Source: Bacteroidales bacterium (GTDB lineage: Bacteria; Bacteroidota; Bacteroidia; Bacteroidales; Paludibacteraceae). Taken from it: a DNA stretch of 64,000 nt. A program made the translations under genes and the position numbers. The stretch is from assembly GCA_012518275.1 (NCBI GenBank), contig JAAYSS010000047.1:19058-83057 (forward strand), read 5' to 3'. Each line of letters opens with the position of its first letter. Position 1 is the first letter of the stretch. Below, in pieces: positions 1-50,725 of this stretch. The notes under the pieces are model-generated. The model did not search any database, was not told the DNA's origin, and saw nothing but the letters and a program-made list of their open reading frames with translations.

Positions 1-888
1 AATGGTTTCATAACCTTCGCCATAAAGCGGCGGAAAAATAAAAATCAAAATGCTGAGGATAACACCGCCGAGCAATAACTTTTGAATCGGCGATTTAATG
101 CTTCGAAAAAAACCTTCCAAAAAATTCATTCCACGCGTAAAATATAGCGAAACCAAACCGCAGGCAATACCCAATACAATCAACCAGGGAATGCGCCCAA
201 CGGCGAATGGCTCATAAGTAGAAAATTGGAATAAAAATGCCTTTCCGGTCAGCACATAGGAAAGAGAAGTAGCTGTAACCGAAGAAATTAACAAAGGAAC
301 TATTGACGTCATGGTCATATCGAGCAATAAGACCTCCAACGTAAAAACAAATCCGGCAATAGGGGCTTTGAAAATACCCCCAATAGCTCCGGCTGCACCA
401 CAACCAATCATCAACATCAAGGTTTTTTGATCGAGTTTAAAAAATTTGCCCAGATTGGAACCGATAGCTGAACCAGTCAAAACGATAGGCGATTCAGCAC
501 CCACCGAACCTCCGAAGCCGATAGTTACGGCACTACCCACTATCGATGTCCACACATTATGCAGTTTTATAATTGATTTTCGCTGGGAAATGGCATAGAG
601 AATTCGAGTTACACCGTGACTGATGTCATCTTTCACAATATATCTGACAAAAAGATACGAAAGGGTAATGCCGACAAATGGGAACAACAGATACCAAAAA
701 CTTACTTCGTCCGGATTAAACCAACCAGTAAGAAGTTTCTGAATAAGATAAATAGCAGATTTTAAAACGTTGGCGGCAATAGAGGCAAAGATTCCTACCA
801 AAAGGCTGAGGAAAAGAACAAAATGGTGCTGCTTGATGTTCTTTTCACGCCATGCTATTAATTTACCGTACCAATTTTTATCAATCAT
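1..888 (-). CDS. ClC-family chloride channel/transporter (3' end cut by window edge)
   Basis: This reading frame is absent from the ORF track because it runs off the left edge; 296 codons are visible from an ATG at 886-888 (MIDKNWYGKLIAWREK). It is strongly hydrophobic. The segment GFGGSVGAESPIV matches the second ClC selectivity motif (G-x-E-x-P, with the gating glutamate), and GGIFKAPIAGFVFTLE matches the conserved ClC helix after it. ClC proteins carry chloride as channels or in exchange for protons across the inner membrane; which mode applies cannot be told here. The C-terminal part, with the ion-coordinating tyrosine and any CBS domains, lies outside the window. Confidence 0.88.
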   Translation of the reverse strand, partial: MIDKNWYGKLIAWREKNIKQHHFVLFLSLLVGIFASIAANVLKSAIYLIQKLLTGWFNPDEVSFWYLLFPFVGITLSYLFVRYIVKDDISHGVTRILYAISQRKSIIKLHNVWTSIVGSAVTIGFGGSVGAESPIVLTGSAIGSNLGKFFKLDQKTLMLMIGCGAAGAIGGIFKAPIAGFVFTLEVLLLDMTMTSIVPLLISSVTATSLSYVLTGKAFLFQFSTYEPFAVGRIPWLIVLGIACGLVSLYFTRGMNFLEGFFRSIKSPIQKLLLGGVILSILIFIFPPLYGEGYETI

Positions 889-969
889 TACCAGTGTAAG
901 TAAATGAAACACAAAGATAATATTTTTTCATTTAGATAGAAAAAATCAAGCGCTAGATTTATTGCACGG

Positions 970-2373
970 CTACATCCCTTTACCTTTGAATAAAATTTCG
1001 AGGGTGAAAAAAATAATTTTTAAATCGGTACCAAGATTCATATCCTCTGTGTACACAATATCATAATTAAGGCGTTCTATCATCTTTTCAATTGTATCTG
1101 CATAACCAATTTTTATCGGTCCCCAAGAGGTTAAACCCGGGCGGATGCGGTAAATCAAGCAATAATACGGTGCCTTTTGGACAATTTGATCAATGTAATA
1201 TTTGCGTTCAGGACGTGGCCCTACTAAACTCATATCCCCTTTTATGACATTAAAAAATTGTGGAATTTCATCTAATCGGTATTTGCGCATCGTGCGTCCA
1301 ACTTTTGTTATCCTATCATCATCAGGACCACTCAGCTGAGGTATCCCTTTTTCAGAATCGTAGTACATGGAACGGAATTTCAACATATTAAAACTCTTTC
1401 CAAATCTTCCGATACGCTCTTGTTTGTACAATACAGGACCTTTAGACCCCATTTTGATGGCTATAGCAAAATAAATCATAAAAGGCGATAACAATATCAA
1501 ACTAAGTACAGATATCACAATATCCATCGCACGTTTCACGCAAAGTTCCCAGTCTGACATGGTGGGCTGCGTAACACTCACCAGCGGATTAATTCCGTAC
1601 TTCTCAATCCTAACTTTCCCCGTCAATATTTCATAAAGACGAGGTGTAAACCAAATATCTACATTGTACTGAAACAGCCGATTGATTACATCAAAAATTC
1701 GATGCCCACCTGGATCATCTAACGCTACCACAACCTCACTAACATTATTATTCTCAATTACTTTCCCAACTTCAAATATATTGCCTAAAATTAATTCGAG
1801 GGGTACATCTTTTTCGAAGGACTCTACTTTCACATAACCAACAACCGTATTAAATAAGGATGTTTTAGAGATTTCTGACGCTATCCTTTGGGCATTTTTC
1901 CCCGTTCCAACAATCAGGGTATTGATTGTCCACTTTTTTCTCTTAAAATTTCGACGAATAATTAAGGTTTGAATAATCCGAAAAAGCCATGTAAAGCCAA
2001 ACAACATCGCATAAAGCACTAAAAGCGAGTAGTAATAATAGGTATAGTCGACCACAATATCGTCGAGAAGTAACACAAAGAAAATAATGACCGAAATAAT
2101 AGCAGTAGTAAGCAAGGTGGTAAAAAACTCAAAGAATTTTGATTCTTTTATGGGATTAAGATAATAGCCGGAAAGGTAGTTTATAGCAAGGCAAAGAAGT
2201 AAGAAAAGTACTAGGTTAGTATAATAGTTATAATTCGGGAAGAAAATCGTAATGTTAGAGAATAAAATCCCGTCATTCACAACCCACCTGAAAATCATAA
2301 AAAGTATCCACACAATCAGTGCTGCTACTAAATCAAAGAATATGTACTTAAAAATGAGTACTTTTTTATTCAT
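970..2373 (-). CDS. Polyprenyl-phosphate sugar-1-phosphate transferase (WcaJ-like)
   Basis: The 467-residue protein has four N-terminal membrane segments (about residues 6-28, 50-68, 80-105, 110-133). A Rossmann-like central domain follows (TLIVGTGKNAQRIASEI), then a C-terminal bacterial sugar-transferase domain from about residue 280. Conserved pieces of that domain are KRAMDIVIS, LYKQERIGRFGKSF, MLKFRSM, LDEIPQFFNVIKGDMSLVGPRPE and RPGLTSWG. The family transfers a sugar-1-phosphate to undecaprenyl phosphate and so starts exopolysaccharide or O-antigen repeat units at the inner membrane. No other polysaccharide genes are adjacent, so the polymer is unknown. The next gene upstream (Sua5) ends 6 bp away. 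Confidence 0.92.
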   Translation of the reverse strand: MNKKVLIFKYIFFDLVAALIVWILFMIFRWVVNDGILFSNITIFFPNYNYYTNLVLFLLLCLAINYLSGYYLNPIKESKFFEFFTTLLTTAIISVIIFFVLLLDDIVVDYTYYYYSLLVLYAMLFGFTWLFRIIQTLIIRRNFKRKKWTINTLIVGTGKNAQRIASEISKTSLFNTVVGYVKVESFEKDVPLELILGNIFEVGKVIENNNVSEVVVALDDPGGHRIFDVINRLFQYNVDIWFTPRLYEILTGKVRIEKYGINPLVSVTQPTMSDWELCVKRAMDIVISVLSLILLSPFMIYFAIAIKMGSKGPVLYKQERIGRFGKSFNMLKFRSMYYDSEKGIPQLSGPDDDRITKVGRTMRKYRLDEIPQFFNVIKGDMSLVGPRPERKYYIDQIVQKAPYYCLIYRIRPGLTSWGPIKIGYADTIEKMIERLNYDIVYTEDMNLGTDLKIIFFTLEILFKGKGM

Positions 2374-44907: not shown

Positions 44908-44978
44908 TGTCCTATAGTGTAACGGTAGCACACCAGTCTCTGGATCTGTTAGTCAAGGTTCGAATCCTTGTAGGACAA
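44908..44978 (+). tRNA. tRNA-Gln (CTG), integration target
   Basis: Acceptor TGTCCTA/TAGGACA, D-arm GTGT/GCAC, T-arm CAAGG-TTCGAAT-CCTTG and discriminator A form a 71-nt cloverleaf. The anticodon loop CTCTGGA gives CTG. The anticodon stem CCAGT/TCTGT has mismatches at 27-43 (C-T) and 31-39 (T-T), leaving three pairs. The last 14 bases of the gene lie inside the duplicated att core, so the integrated element rebuilds an intact tRNA 3' end. Confidence 0.85.
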
Positions 44979-44980
44979 CA
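44965..44980 (+). repeat. attL core (tRNA-Gln 3' end)
   Basis: TCCTTGTAGGACAACA is the 3' end of tRNA-Gln and occurs again exactly at 50710-50725. The 16-bp direct repeat brackets the integrase-bearing element. Confidence 0.88.
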
Positions 44981-44982
44981 AT

Positions 44983-45016
44983 AAACCGCAACACAATGTC
45001 TGTGTTGCGGTTTTTA
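44983..45016 (+). terminator. Terminator of tRNA-Gln, carried by the element
   Basis: AAACCGCAACACA and TGTGTTGCGGTTT form a perfect 13-bp stem (5-nt loop) followed by a T-run. It starts 2 bp inside the element, so the element supplies the tRNA's terminator. Confidence 0.85.
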
Positions 45017-45020
45017 TTTC

Positions 45021-45043
45021 AAAGGGTGAAAATTAGGGTGAAA
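45021..45043 (+). repeat. Terminal 23-bp repeat, left copy
   Basis: Two GGGTGAAA units separated by ATTA, within a 23-bp sequence identical to 50550-50572 and in the same orientation. The likely role is an integrase or excisionase arm site. Confidence 0.75.
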
Positions 45044-45065: not shown

Positions 45066-45096
45066 TTTGATAACTCGAATAAACATTCTATCTTTG
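45066..45096 (+). promoter_or_regulatory. Consensus promoter for the element's small RNA
   Basis: TTTG at 45066-45069, 19-bp spacer, TATCTTTG at 45089-45096: a perfect Bacteroidota promoter with a start expected near 45102. No convincing ORF follows it. Confidence 0.75.
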
Positions 45097-45101
45097 TAGC
45101 A

Positions 45102-45175
45102 CCTACCAACATTTTTGCCGTTGGTTGGTTAAACACTTTGACGGGCGGGGTGGTTCTCGCCTGTCTTTATTTTTA
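45102..45175 (+). ncRNA. Candidate small RNA of about 74 nt
   Basis: From the predicted start, the transcript folds into a first hairpin (ACCAAC with GTTGGT). A second, GC-rich hairpin (GACGGGCG with CGCCTGTC, one G-T pair) is followed by TTTATTTTT, an intrinsic terminator. The promoter, two stems and terminator in 110 bp define a complete small-RNA unit. The overlapping track ORF (45048-45257) starts before the promoter and is not credible. No known RNA family is recognised; copy-number or immunity control is a guess. Confidence 0.6.
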
Positions 45176-45805: not shown

Positions 45806-46042
45806 TTACAGTTTCAACTGATTAATATCTTCGATTGTTTCCAAATTAAGTTTTACACTTCTTGTTATTTGCTCCATTATCGCGTTTTGCAATTTAAAAA
45901 CTGGATTTGTTACCTTACTCGATTCAAGCGGAATGTGAATGTTAGCATAATCAACAATCCGCGCTTCTAACTTCACTAAATCCTCATAAATTCCTACAAG
46001 CTGATTTGTACGTTCTGTTACATCAAATTTTTTTGTATTCAT
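45806..46042 (-). CDS. Small helical element protein (78 aa), function unknown
   Basis: The product (MNTKKFDVTERTNQLVGIYEDL...) is predicted all-helical with heptad-like hydrophobic spacing. It begins K-F-x-V-(S/T), like its upstream neighbour, and the two may be distant paralogues. The gap between them is 5 bp, so they should be cotranscribed and perhaps act together. Confidence 0.6.
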   Translation of the reverse strand: MNTKKFDVTERTNQLVGIYEDLVKLEARIVDYANIHIPLESSKVTNPVFKLQNAIMEQITRSVKLNLETIEDINQLKL

Positions 46043-46047
46043 AGTGA

Positions 46048-46296
46048 TTAGATAATTACTCCTTTGTTTTTATTTAAACTCAAATTTTCATCAATGGAGC
46101 TTAAAACATAATGAAAAACTTCATCTTTTAGATTCGTGATGACTGGGTAAAAACATTCATTCATTACCTCATCAACTTTAGAATCTTCTACATATTCGCT
46201 TACTGTTTTATAAATTTGTTCGCAAGTGTCATCGATATTTTTTATACACTCAATAAAATCTGCTGTTTGTTTGCTTACTTTAAATTGTTTTTCCAT
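46048..46296 (-). CDS. Small acidic helical element protein (82 aa), function unknown
   Basis: The product (MEKQFKVSKQTADFIECIKNI...) is acidic and helical, with three cysteines. It is the first gene after the twin palindromes at 46387-46443. With its 5-bp-spaced partner it forms a two-gene unit. The layout recalls a toxin-antitoxin or regulator pair, but neither protein carries a recognisable toxin or DNA-binding motif, so I do not make that call. Confidence 0.6.
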   Translation of the reverse strand: MEKQFKVSKQTADFIECIKNIDDTCEQIYKTVSEYVEDSKVDEVMNECFYPVITNLKDEVFHYVLSSIDENLSLNKNKGVII

Positions 46297-46386: not shown

Positions 46387-46443
46387 CGTATTAAAATAAT
46401 ACGTTTTGGGCTTATTTTTTAACATTCGTATTAAAATAATACG
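46387..46443. repeat. Twin 17-bp palindromes, 40 bp apart
   Basis: CGTATTAAAATAATACG occurs twice exactly (46387-46403 and 46427-46443). Each is an inverted repeat with 6-bp arms and a 5-bp AT centre. They lie between the stop of the GRPKGT gene and the start of the two small genes, where an operator or a replication iteron pair could act. Confidence 0.7.
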
Positions 46444-46446
46444 CTT

Positions 46447-46758
46447 TTAGTACTCGGTCTCAAGTTCTTTCAAAAGTTCTTTCGCTTCTTCTTTGCTAAG
46501 TTCTACCTCCTGAATAAATTCAATATCAGTTTGTACACTTTGCATTTTTGGTGTTGTGTATTCAAGCAGTTTTATCAAAATGTTTAACCGGTCTTTTGGT
46601 TCTACTGCCAACAAATCTTTTTCAAATTGGATTCGGTTCTTATCCAATAAAAAATTAATCCATTCCCTAACACTTTGAGTGATTTTGTTGGGTGTGCCTT
46701 TTTTCCGCCCCCCGGTTTTGGGTGTTCCTTTTGGTCTTCCTACTGTTTTTTTATTCAT
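46447..46758 (-). CDS. Phage/element small basic protein with GRPKGT N-terminus
   Basis: The 103-residue protein starts with a basic glycine-rich segment (VGRPKGTPKTGGRKKGTPNK), then a helical body with LDKNRIQFEKDLLAVEPKDRLNILIKLLEYTTPK and an acidic end. Proteins with this plan are common in Bacteroidota phages and mobile elements. The basic head should bind DNA. Some look like small terminase subunits in position and size, but that role is only a hypothesis here. Confidence 0.7.
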   Translation of the reverse strand: MNKKTVGRPKGTPKTGGRKKGTPNKITQSVREWINFLLDKNRIQFEKDLLAVEPKDRLNILIKLLEYTTPKMQSVQTDIEFIQEVELSKEEAKELLKELETEY

Positions 46759-46880: not shown

Positions 46881-47630
46881 TTATAGTTTTTCATCATAAT
46901 GGCTTTTTTGACTAATTCTGCGTTTATTCTCTCCATTGTTTTCTGTGTTGATTTTATGATTATACCAATTTGCAAAATGTTTTTTCGCATCGTTTATTGA
47001 TTTTTTTTGCGCCCCCTCAGTTTCCAGTTTCTTAAAAAAAGAATTTATGGAATAAATTATTTCCTCTTTGCTTTTGTGATAATTCATGCACAAAATTTCA
47101 ATATGCCTTTCGTCTTCTAAAAATATCTTTTTACAATCGGATAATTCTATTTCAAAATTTTGTGAGAATTTGTTCTTATTCTCATTCTCATTCTTATTCT
47201 TATTATTATTCTTATTCTTATTCTTATTACCGATATGGTATTCGTATGGTATTGATACTGTATCTGTATTATATACATACTCTATCAAGTCCCGATTCTT
47301 AACCATAGTAAGCCCTTTATTTACAGCACTTATTACTTTTGGAGATTTATTTTTATTATACTTATTCCAGTTAATAATTGCCATTTCATTAGTTTCTTCT
47401 GAATAAACTATCTTTTCAGCATTTTCAAAAAAATCTATTAGCTTTGTAACTTCATCTATTGAAACACCTAAGTCAAAAGAAATTTGCCTTTTAGTTATTT
47501 CATATATTCCGCATTGAGTAGTACGTTCATTTGTCAGTAAGTAAATAAAGAATAGCTTCTTTATTGGATCTAATTCGGAAATGAAACTATCACTCCAATA
47601 TGTAGTATGTACATTTCTATAAATTGCCAT
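46881..47630 (-). CDS. Replication-initiator-like protein with N/K-rich linker
   Basis: The first 120 residues resemble the winged-helix N-terminus of phage replication (DnaD/O-like) proteins: TYWSDSFISELDPIKKLFFIYLLTNERTTQCGIYEITKRQISFDLG. A low-complexity (NK)n/(NE)n linker lies at about 135-157. A C-terminal helical domain (EIEL..CKKIFLEDERHIEILCM...WYNHKI) resembles the DnaD C-terminal region. It probably opens the element's origin or loads the host helicase. It is 3 bp downstream of the nuclease gene. Confidence 0.65.
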   Translation of the reverse strand: MAIYRNVHTTYWSDSFISELDPIKKLFFIYLLTNERTTQCGIYEITKRQISFDLGVSIDEVTKLIDFFENAEKIVYSEETNEMAIINWNKYNKNKSPKVISAVNKGLTMVKNRDLIEYVYNTDTVSIPYEYHIGNKNKNKNNNKNKNENENKNKFSQNFEIELSDCKKIFLEDERHIEILCMNYHKSKEEIIYSINSFFKKLETEGAQKKSINDAKKHFANWYNHKINTENNGENKRRISQKSHYDEKL

Positions 47631-47633
47631 AAT

Positions 47634-48125
47634 TCAAAAATTTTTATTAAACCATTCTACGAACGTTGTAAAATCTTTTGCTATATAGTAAACACCGCCC
47701 GCGCTTTCAATATCCCGCTGATATTTCTTTTGTGCCTCACTTTGGCGGTCTGCTCCAATCTTAACCTCAATTTTAACACTCCTGCCGTTGATTGTAGCGG
47801 ATATGTCGGCACTTCCGGGCGTTGATGTACCTTTTACCCATTCAATACTTCCAATCGTTCTACGAAGCCCTAAAACGTCTGTATAAGTTTTGCGTTTGTC
47901 GATCGGTATGCCGGTGGTGTTTATCCTTTCAGCTTGCCCGCCTTTAAGTTTAATATATGCAATGATAGCTTTTGTAAGACCGTTGGCGGTCTTATCGGTG
48001 TGTGTAATCGGTGCAAGGAGTTCCGCCGGTATATTCGGATATTTTAACCGCTTGCGCTTCATTAACTCACTCTCAAGCCGTTTAATGCTTTCCGGTTTTT
48101 TGTATTTAGTTAAACACTTAGCCAT
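47634..48125 (-). CDS. VRR-NUC-like nuclease
   Basis: The 163-residue protein ends in a PD-(D/E)XK-type domain: TPGSADISATINGRSVKIEVKIGADRQSEAQKKYQRDIESAGGVYYIAK carries the D...E-V-K catalytic pattern and the Q-x3-Q helix of the VRR-NUC family. Such nucleases are found beside phage replication genes and can cut branched DNA. Residues 1-90 are a helical extension. It sits 3 bp after the HTH gene and 3 bp before the replication gene. Confidence 0.8.
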   Translation of the reverse strand: MAKCLTKYKKPESIKRLESELMKRKRLKYPNIPAELLAPITHTDKTANGLTKAIIAYIKLKGGQAERINTTGIPIDKRKTYTDVLGLRRTIGSIEWVKGTSTPGSADISATINGRSVKIEVKIGADRQSEAQKKYQRDIESAGGVYYIAKDFTTFVEWFNKNF

Positions 48126-48128
48126 AAT

Positions 48129-48440
48129 TTACACCCTCCGATATTTAAGTGTTTCAACATCTTTCATTGTATCGCAGATAATGTTCTTTTCGTAGCGTAT
48201 GAGCGAACCAATCCTTTTGGCGGGGATTATTCCCTTTTTAGTCCATTTGTGCAATGTGGGCAACGATACACCCAAATACTCGGCTGTTTGCTTTCGTGTT
48301 AATAATTCCGGTGTAGTGTCGGTGGATTCTGGTGGCGTTAATTGTTCTACCGCCTTTTGTACTTCGTTTGATACGATTGTTTGAATTGAGTTTTGAAAAT
48401 CGTTAAAACTAATTCCGTTTAATAAAATTTCGTTTGTCAT
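48129..48440 (-). CDS. Excisionase-like helix-turn-helix protein
   Basis: The 103-residue product has a MerR-type/HTH_17 domain: LLTRKQTAEYLGVSLPTLHKWTKKGIIPAKRIGSLIRYEK at about residues 46-85. This family includes excisionases (Xis/AlpA-like) of integrative elements. It heads the nuclease/replication operon rather than being next to the integrase, so it may both bend DNA for excision and regulate that operon. The first 45 residues are helical and not recognised. Confidence 0.82.
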   Translation of the reverse strand: MTNEILLNGISFNDFQNSIQTIVSNEVQKAVEQLTPPESTDTTPELLTRKQTAEYLGVSLPTLHKWTKKGIIPAKRIGSLIRYEKNIICDTMKDVETLKYRRV

Positions 48441-48480
48441 AATCTTGTTTTTATTAAAGTTTACGACAAAGTTGCGGTTT

Positions 48481-48535
48481 TGATAAAAAATAAAACTTCC
48501 AAAGTTCCGATTGGGATAAATGGAATTTTGGAAGT
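48481..48535 (-). terminator. Terminator of the integrase operon
   Basis: ACTTCCAAAGTTCC (48495-48508) pairs with GGAATTTTGGAAGT (48522-48535), 14 positions with one G-T pair. On the minus strand it is followed by TTTTATTTTTT. It separates the integrase-220aa unit from the HTH operon, which must have its own promoter in the remaining 40 bp. Confidence 0.8.
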
Positions 48536-48560: not shown

Positions 48561-49223
48561 TTAAATAAAATATTTCGTCAATTCTTCTTTTACATAATTT
48601 TCAATTAAATCTGTGTTTCTTGCGGTGTTTCTTGTAATACCGCCTCTAACAGCGCAAAAAACGTTTTTTTCTTTTTTTTCAACAACTTTACAGCCAAATT
48701 TATCATAAAAAACTGAAATTCCATCACTTCCTCGATAAAATTCTTTTTGTATTACGTTATTTTCTATCAGATAATAAAAAATCCGTGCAAAGTCTATGAA
48801 TTTAGATATTAGTTTCTCATTTTCATCAATATATGAACAACGTTTTAACACATTAATTAAATCACTTATTTTGTGGCGGTATTTTTTTTCAAATAGACCT
48901 TCAAACGTTAATTCATGCTTTTCTGCTGGCTTATTTGGTAGCTGTGAATCTTTTATGCCTTTCTCAATTAGCAACAAATCAACTTCAACTATTAACCTAT
49001 CTCGAAGTTCGATTAAAGCTGGCGGTGCTTTAAGTATAAGGTCAGGTATGGTGCGTAAAACTCTATCTTCTTCAAGTAAATCACTTTTTAAACTTTCTAA
49101 AAGATAACTAACAACGCCCGGGTTATAATCATTGAAATTCTTCTTTAACCTTTTCAATTGTTTCACCTGATTCAATGTGGTTTCGTATCGTTCTACTTTT
49201 TGAGAGATTGTTGTTGAACTCAT
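48561..49223 (-). CDS. Unrecognised 220-residue protein coupled to the integrase
   Basis: The start codon overlaps the integrase stop by 4 bp (ATGA), so the two are translationally coupled. The N-terminal half is helical (QVKQLKRLKKNFNDYNPGVVSYLLESL, DLILKAPPALIELRDRLIVEVDLLL). The C-terminal half (GLFEKKYRHKISDLINVLKRC, NNVIQKEFYRGSDGISVFYDKFG, RNTARNTDLIENYVKEELTKYF) looks like a compact regulatory or winged-helix-like domain. I do not recognise the family. Coupling suggests a role in recombination control or a cargo tied to integration. Confidence 0.7.
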   Translation of the reverse strand: MSSTTISQKVERYETTLNQVKQLKRLKKNFNDYNPGVVSYLLESLKSDLLEEDRVLRTIPDLILKAPPALIELRDRLIVEVDLLLIEKGIKDSQLPNKPAEKHELTFEGLFEKKYRHKISDLINVLKRCSYIDENEKLISKFIDFARIFYYLIENNVIQKEFYRGSDGISVFYDKFGCKVVEKKEKNVFCAVRGGITRNTARNTDLIENYVKEELTKYFI

Positions 49224-50500
49224 TTTGCTATCGTTAAGGGATTAAAGAACTTATGAGATTTCAGTTTCATTGCATTATCCTTGCTACTCATTTTAATGTA
49301 TTTCATAAATGCACTTTCGGTTTTGTGTCCGGTTATCTCCATTATTGAAAGTACCGGAACGTCTGCCAAATAGGCATTCGTTGCAAAAGAACGGCGGGCG
49401 GTGTGGCTCGTTACTAACTTATATTTTGGCGTTGTTGAACTGACTAACATTCCTTTTATTCGGTTTTGGGTTGTTATTGGTTCATTTATCTCTGCTTTTT
49501 CCGCTACTTCCTTAATGTATTCGTTGTATTTTTGATTACTGATTGACTTTGGTAGCTGATAATCGTATTTCTCGAATATCTGTTTTACTCTCGTATGTAT
49601 CGGAATATCTACGATTCTTTCAGTCTTTTGCGTTTTAAGACTAATCGTATTATCGGAAGTAATGTTATCTTTTGTTAGTCGGAAAAGGTCGGAATATCTT
49701 AAACCGGTATAACTTCCAATAATAAACATATCCCTAACAGTTTCTAAATACTTTGGTAGGTTGGAAAGGTTGTACATTTTCGAAAGCTCCGTTTCATTCA
49801 AATAAATGCTCTCTGTTTCCTCTTTCGGTTTACTAAATGATTTCTTTTGATAGTCTAATGATACGTCAATACCTCGTTCGTTAGCCTTGTTTAGTATCGT
49901 TTTTATAATCTTTATTCGTGTGCCGATAGTGTTTTGTGCTAAACCCAAATCGGTAAGGTATTTCACAAATAAATTATAAAAATCAATATCGGCGTTTTTG
50001 TATGTTAATACGGTTTTATGTTTCTTTTCATAGTCTTTCAGATTACGCAAAACAACCTTATAACTTTTTAATGTGGATTTTTTATAAGGTAGGGTATCAA
50101 TCAAATGCTGTGTGAACTGCGTTAATGTCAAATTAGCAAGACTTGTTGCATCTGTAGCAGTGTTTTTCTGTTTTATAACCTTATCGAGTTCGTTTTTGAT
50201 TTCGTCTTTGGTTGGTGTAGATCCGCTGTTTTTGAATGATAGCAAAACAGCGTTAATCATACTTTCGATGTCATCCAGACGTTGGTTAAATTCCGGATAT
50301 TCCGGAAATTTGGCGGTACTCTTTGCCCTGCAAGTCTTTTTGTTCCAAAATTTCGGATTGATTGTTTCTGAAATATAATATCTCAAATAATTATATTTCG
50401 TTTTGTTGCCAATTTTGACCGGTTCACTAATTGGGATTTGTGCGTAAAGTGGTGTAGTATCCCCTTTTGTATATTTACGGGTAAAACTAATTTTTGCCAT
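49220..50500 (-). CDS. int: Tyrosine recombinase (element integrase)
   Basis: The 426-residue integrase has an N-terminal arm-binding domain, a SAM-like core-binding domain (about 125-215: LTQFTQHLIDTLPYKKSTLKSYKVVLRNLKDYEKKH) and the catalytic domain. Active-site residues are visible: Arg in SYTGLRYSDLFRL, Lys in SLKTQKTERIVDIP, His-x2-Arg in VTSHTARRSFATNAY, His in MEITGHKTESAF and the nucleophile Tyr in MKYIKMS. It is next to attR and should recombine the tRNA-Gln site. Confidence 0.95.
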   Translation of the reverse strand: MAKISFTRKYTKGDTTPLYAQIPISEPVKIGNKTKYNYLRYYISETINPKFWNKKTCRAKSTAKFPEYPEFNQRLDDIESMINAVLLSFKNSGSTPTKDEIKNELDKVIKQKNTATDATSLANLTLTQFTQHLIDTLPYKKSTLKSYKVVLRNLKDYEKKHKTVLTYKNADIDFYNLFVKYLTDLGLAQNTIGTRIKIIKTILNKANERGIDVSLDYQKKSFSKPKEETESIYLNETELSKMYNLSNLPKYLETVRDMFIIGSYTGLRYSDLFRLTKDNITSDNTISLKTQKTERIVDIPIHTRVKQIFEKYDYQLPKSISNQKYNEYIKEVAEKAEINEPITTQNRIKGMLVSSTTPKYKLVTSHTARRSFATNAYLADVPVLSIMEITGHKTESAFMKYIKMSSKDNAMKLKSHKFFNPLTIAK

Positions 50501-50529
50501 AATTGAATAATGATTGGTTAAACACTATG

Positions 50530-50537: not shown

Positions 50538-50549
50538 ACAAATTCTTTT

Positions 50550-50572
50550 AAAGGGTGAAAATTAGGGTGAAA
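50550..50572 (+). repeat. Terminal 23-bp repeat, right copy
   Basis: Identical in sequence and orientation to 45021-45043 (two GGGTGAAA units 4 bp apart). It lies between the integrase promoter and attR. Confidence 0.75.
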
Positions 50573-50704: not shown

Positions 50705-50725
50705 TGTTGTCCTTGTAGGACAACA
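50705..50725 (+). repeat. attR core within a 21-bp palindrome
   Basis: TGTTGTCC and GGACAACA form perfect 8-bp arms around TTGTA. The right 16 bp equal the tRNA-Gln 3' end at 44965-44980. The region from 50573 to 50704 has no gene. Confidence 0.85.

Follow-up and report, generated by a model that had tools for sequence, protein, structure and literature searches.

The protein encoded between the integrase gene (int) and the excisionase-like gene (xis) of a small integrated element of a Bacteroidales bacterium, here called X, is probably (about 60%) a sequence-specific DNA-binding regulator of the excision (xis) operon that is swapped between elements together with its operator. X occupies a fixed slot, in which it is hypervariable and its domains are shuffled, and the repeats beside it co-vary with the type of its C-terminal domain rather than with the integrase. 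From these patterns we infer that X binds DNA and controls xis. For small elements of Bacteroidota in general, we give about even odds to a layout in which a conserved int-xis module carries an exchangeable cassette drawn from unrecognised DNA-binding families, specificity domain and operator being swapped together, which would provide a private excision switch much as phage immunity regions do.

Results

The element is 5.7 kb long and is integrated in the 3' end of a tRNA-Gln gene (tRNA call at 44908-44979 of the window, by which we mean the whole stretch of 64,000 nucleotides that was analysed). The attachment core TCCTTGTAGGACAACA is present as a direct repeat, with one copy inside tRNA-Gln (44965..44980) and the other at 50710..50725. 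Near both ends lie arm-type direct repeats, TTTTCACCCTAATTTTCACCC (50543..50572 and 45014-45043, 93%), which are probably integrase arm sites; paired direct repeats are also found in the leaders of other, related integrases. On the minus strand, a tyrosine integrase of 426 aa (49220..50500; Pfam Phage_integrase 2.5e-11, Phage_int_SAM_5 2.6e-11) is followed by X (220 aa, 48561..49223) and, as the earlier note had read from the sequence, the ATG of X overlaps the TGA of the integrase gene by 4 bp, so that X is translationally coupled to it, and an excisionase-like gene comes next. This gene encodes an HTH_17 protein of 103 aa (xis, 48129..48440; Pfam 3.2e-10), which is 75% identical to its counterpart in L003, a sister element that is also located in tRNA-Gln and has a 19-bp core. 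Further downstream on the same strand are the genes for a nuclease-like protein of 163 aa (47634..48125; PHROG endonuclease 8e-6; 76% identical in L003), which judging by its motif may be of the PD-(D/E)XK or VRR-NUC type, and for a replisome organizer of 249 aa that is a DnaD-like helicase loader (46881..47630; phrog_6251 2e-44, phrog_1701 2e-29). Small ORFs complete the gene set.

The earlier note's remark that X matches no recognised family was borne out: nothing meaningful was found in Pfam, NCBIfam, PHROG or PADLOC, nor among PDB sequences, and there were no close homologues in GTDB contigs, IMG/VR, 150 relatives or phage records. Foldseek searches of PDB and BFVD with low-confidence structure models of the whole protein and its domains gave nothing significant, and the AF2 model of the C-terminal domain (pTM 0.64) had no PDB match at a meaningful E value. 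Neither Pfam nor the structure models with Foldseek revealed a recognisable DNA-binding fold. The RteC family (PF09357) was rejected as an identity for X (no Pfam match; hhalign probability 0.1% against the RteC alignment), PADLOC placed it in no known defence family, and it matched no excisionase or HTH_17 profile, the next gene being the only one in the element that does.

Integrase searches yielded about 100 related loci, and the order int-X-xis was observed in 37 rows, corresponding to 36 distinct places. In these rows the X ORFs encode 164-549 aa and share the strand of the integrase gene; their distance from its stop ranges from -26 to +93 bp, mostly from -8 to +60 bp, and an excisionase-like gene follows. 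Among the loci with the closest integrases (BLAST bits of at least 240, enough downstream DNA), 20 have int-X-xis, four have X with no xis detected, one has xis directly after int and five have neither; L092, L096 and L102 are int-xis elements that lack X. The related elements have varied replication genes and reside at varied tRNA sites (Gln, Asp, Leu, Arg, Phe, Met), and X therefore belongs with the int-xis module and not with the rest of the element. The HTH protein of L097/L190 was excluded as a slot protein; the genes that come after it look HipB/HipA-type, not like xis. A literature search, which missed most subscription journals, returned no description of the int-X-xis slot.

Within this conserved arrangement X is hypervariable. 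At integrase identities of 50-65%, xis is ~53% identical and X ~25%, which is mostly no better than shuffled sequence. Comparison of the window element with L003 shows the exchange at the DNA level: identity is 76% as far as the final base of int, is absent over X and stands at 78% from 10 bp before xis onwards, meaning that all the DNA between the int stop and that point has been replaced. The earlier note had named a similar integrase lacking this X in a like element as what would speak against its proposal, and L003, with the same element type and tRNA-Gln but an unrelated X, is in spirit such a case. Exchange can also take place within X. The integrases of L145 and L147 are 95% identical and their DNA is 86% identical across int and the beginning of X; the N-terminal residues 1-205 of the two X proteins are common to both (E 1e-40), their C-terminal domains are unrelated, the repeats that follow are different, and similarity returns 35 bp before xis, at the -7 box. 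Conversely, L012 and L145 have integrases that are only 39% identical, X C-termini that are 41% identical, and GGAAYGT repeats in both. Based on these two comparisons, it is unlikely that the repeats are read by Int or Xis.

The C-terminal domains were grouped into five types, labels that are based on how similar the sequences are in a modest number of loci. Type a comprises the domain of the window element (~residues 104-220, 48561..48914, minus strand) and those of L004, the second ORF of L007, L125/L154 and L021; type b those of L085, L093, L006, L009, L110, L108, L095, L087, L147 and L016; type c L012 and L145; type d L011 and L022; and type e L109 and L091. A three-member type-a profile searched against 395 genomes gave one weak int-linked match, which proved real (L125), and a five-member profile including L125 gave no further convincing match in 252 genomes. 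In the genomes searched with these profiles, type a was convincingly found only beside such integrases.

Between the end of X and the xis promoter lie element-specific palindromes or tandem repeats. Tandem repeats are enriched after X, with 9 of 30 regions at p<0.05 versus 10 of 139 other intergenic regions (Fisher 6e-5); in a held-out test only three loci were usable, and none was significant. Repeat similarity follows the C-terminal type (permutation p 0.0018 overall; 0.0014 at integrase identities below 50% and 0.007 below 42%), and in pairs of different type it does not correlate with integrase identity. Putative operator and specificity domain thus co-vary according to these tests, some of which are post hoc, having been designed after the sequences had been inspected.

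In the window element, the putative operator CTTCCAAAATTCC...CGGAACTTTGGAAGT (48495..48534, minus strand) is supported by RNA folding and by half-sites and a spacing common to L004, L007 and L021. It precedes a putative xis -7 box, CAACTTTG (48467..48474, minus strand), which fits TAnnTTTG with one mismatch; the promoter consensus is TAnnTTTG at -7 and TTTG at -33 (PMC7366714). The site coincides with the hairpin in which the earlier note had seen a terminator shared by the integrase gene and X. This hairpin is real: its RNA fold has -14.6 kcal/mol (z -4.0; 0 of 200 shuffles as stable) and is followed by a U-rich tail. L004, L007 and L021 have half-sites like those of the window element, in L004 and L007 as equivalent inverted repeats, without a terminator T-run; the hairpin is therefore probably a palindrome to which a protein binds, and would serve as operator in addition to, or in place of, terminating transcription. 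In all four elements the distance from a GGAA to the xis -7 box is exactly 22 nt, and a second GGAA lies 30-31 nt before the box; L007 had been typed as a before its site was inspected. TTCC/GGAA half-sites average 3.8 in type a and 0.4 elsewhere (permutation p 0.0007), and are absent from the remote type-a members L125/L154. Scored as a tandem repeat, the window site is not significant (p 0.43).

Discussion

We propose that X is translated together with the integrase and that its C-terminal domain binds palindromic or tandem half-sites located after its own stop codon and ahead of the xis promoter; for the window element these would be the TTCC/GGAA half-sites at 48495-48534. The N-terminal domain probably has a sensing or dimerisation function. 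Binding upstream of xis would set xis transcription and, hence, excision. X, or its C-terminal domain alone, would move between elements along with its operator, so that every element has a private switch while the rest of the int-xis module stays conserved. The type-b repeats of L110 and L039 abut the -7 box, a position that suggests repression, and the type-a half-site, at a fixed 22 nt and near -33, would fit repression or activation alike. The slot protein of L158, the only one in the slot that has a C-terminal HTH_17, was counted in favour of a regulator. Of the two guesses in the earlier note, a control factor tied to the integrase is the better one, because the position of X is conserved and the putative operator before xis co-varies with its C-terminal domain.

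The extreme variability of X at a fixed place, and its lack of a known family, could also be expected if the slot after int were an insertion site ready for expression, at which anti-phage or superinfection-exclusion genes particular to each element come and go, the repeats belonging to the swapped cassettes for other reasons. The defence hotspots of phages and satellites likewise have variable content at a fixed place. Yet the slot nearly always holds one protein, on the same strand and tightly coupled to int, the 35 slot proteins are free of any defence enzyme pattern (Pfam, PADLOC), X itself has no PADLOC match or enzymatic domain, and the C-terminal types recur and follow the repeats before xis. 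The defence cargo that the earlier note had considered gained no positive support, and we regard it as unlikely. Slightly less likely again is that X is an accessory directionality factor, or an att-binding recombination cofactor that works with the integrase. Its coupling to int and its position next to xis would suit such a role, for which the Bacteroides IMEs Tn4555 and NBU1 offer a precedent in that their excision needs extra proteins or regions (PMC5704250). Against it, changes in X do not follow those in int or xis, related int-xis elements exist without X, and the co-varying sites are at the xis promoter and not at the att ends. A cofactor matched to this integrase, another suggestion of the earlier note, is improbable because X C-termini can be unrelated even where the integrases are as much as 95% identical and xis remains matched. 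Both the cargo and an Xis-like directionality factor are thus less likely than a DNA-binding regulator.

The least probable of these alternatives is that the inverted repeats found between X and xis only terminate transcription and move with X, whose function would then be another one. The palindrome of the window element does fold as a terminator, and in L003, L006 and L087 a hairpin is also followed by a T-run. However, the half-sites of L004, L007 and L021 keep the identical 22-nt distance to the -7 box without any T-run, and several sites consist of direct, not inverted, repeats (L010, L012, L109).

A regulator of this kind would have partial parallels in known systems. In the SaPI phage satellites, the gene of the master repressor Stl is located near int, and satellite repressors of this type are derepressed by a helper-phage protein. 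Like Stl, X would be a modular regulator, largely helical and encoded close to int, that controls the excision and replication genes of the element to which it belongs. The HTH of Stl is N-terminal and its inducer-binding domains are C-terminal, whereas in X it is the C-terminal domain that appears to set operator specificity; unlike Stl, X is placed after int and on the same strand as xis, and no sequence relation between the two was found. The modularity of Stl repressors has been described (PMC9927489). RteC of the CTnDOT-type elements is likewise a Bacteroidota regulator of excision genes, and RteC-domain genes, too, occur directly upstream of HTH_17 genes, but RteC has no profile similarity to X and its gene is not coupled to the integrase gene. 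In heteroimmune lambdoid phages, the immunity regulator and its operators are swapped together while the rest of the module stays conserved; in the present elements the swapped unit is located between int and xis, and its proteins are of unrecognised families. If our reading is right, it provides a function and a DNA target for unannotated, fast-diverging genes beside Bacteroidota integrases, would explain why such slot genes match no family, and offers private excision switches for study whose operator specificity can be read from sequence.

Other features of the window element and its relatives

At its end, the coding sequence of X contains the iteron-like CAAGAAACACCG/CAAGAAACACAG (48611-48634), found only there within the element. 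A 103-aa protein (46447-46758, minus strand), for which PHROG matches are weak only, has an N-terminal GRPKGTPKTGGRKKGTPNK motif that by eye resembles some phage packaging-related proteins. Just after this ORF and upstream of the two small ORFs at 45806-46296, two 21-nt repeats, CGTATTAAAATAATACG, each palindromic, are present at 46387-46447 and are possibly another operator.

Near the distal end, a putative sRNA (45091-45172, plus strand) has a promoter, TATCTTTG, and a terminator hairpin (45140-45165). It carries TTGGTTAAACACT, which is complementary to AGTGTTTAACCAA in the integrase leader (50514-50525, minus strand), and L003 has the same unit with an altered hairpin and an unchanged leader motif. 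A pattern scan of viral contigs found no such unit. The complementarity possibly reflects a small RNA or, alternatively, a site for a protein that is present on each of the two att arms. The arm-type repeats differ between the two elements, TTTTCACCC in the window element and ATTCTTACC in L003, and the DNA similarity of their int genes is confined to roughly the last two thirds of the gene; the integrase N-terminus may be exchanged together with its arm sites.

L173-L176, L182 and L006 are elements of ~4.5-7.5 kb at tRNA genes that have int-X-xis and no obvious capsid or relaxase genes, and by eye some of their proteins look like replication initiators of the HUH or filamentous-phage type. In L158, the slot protein of a remote integrase (440-1468, minus strand) ends in an HTH_17 excisionase-like domain, as if X and xis were fused.
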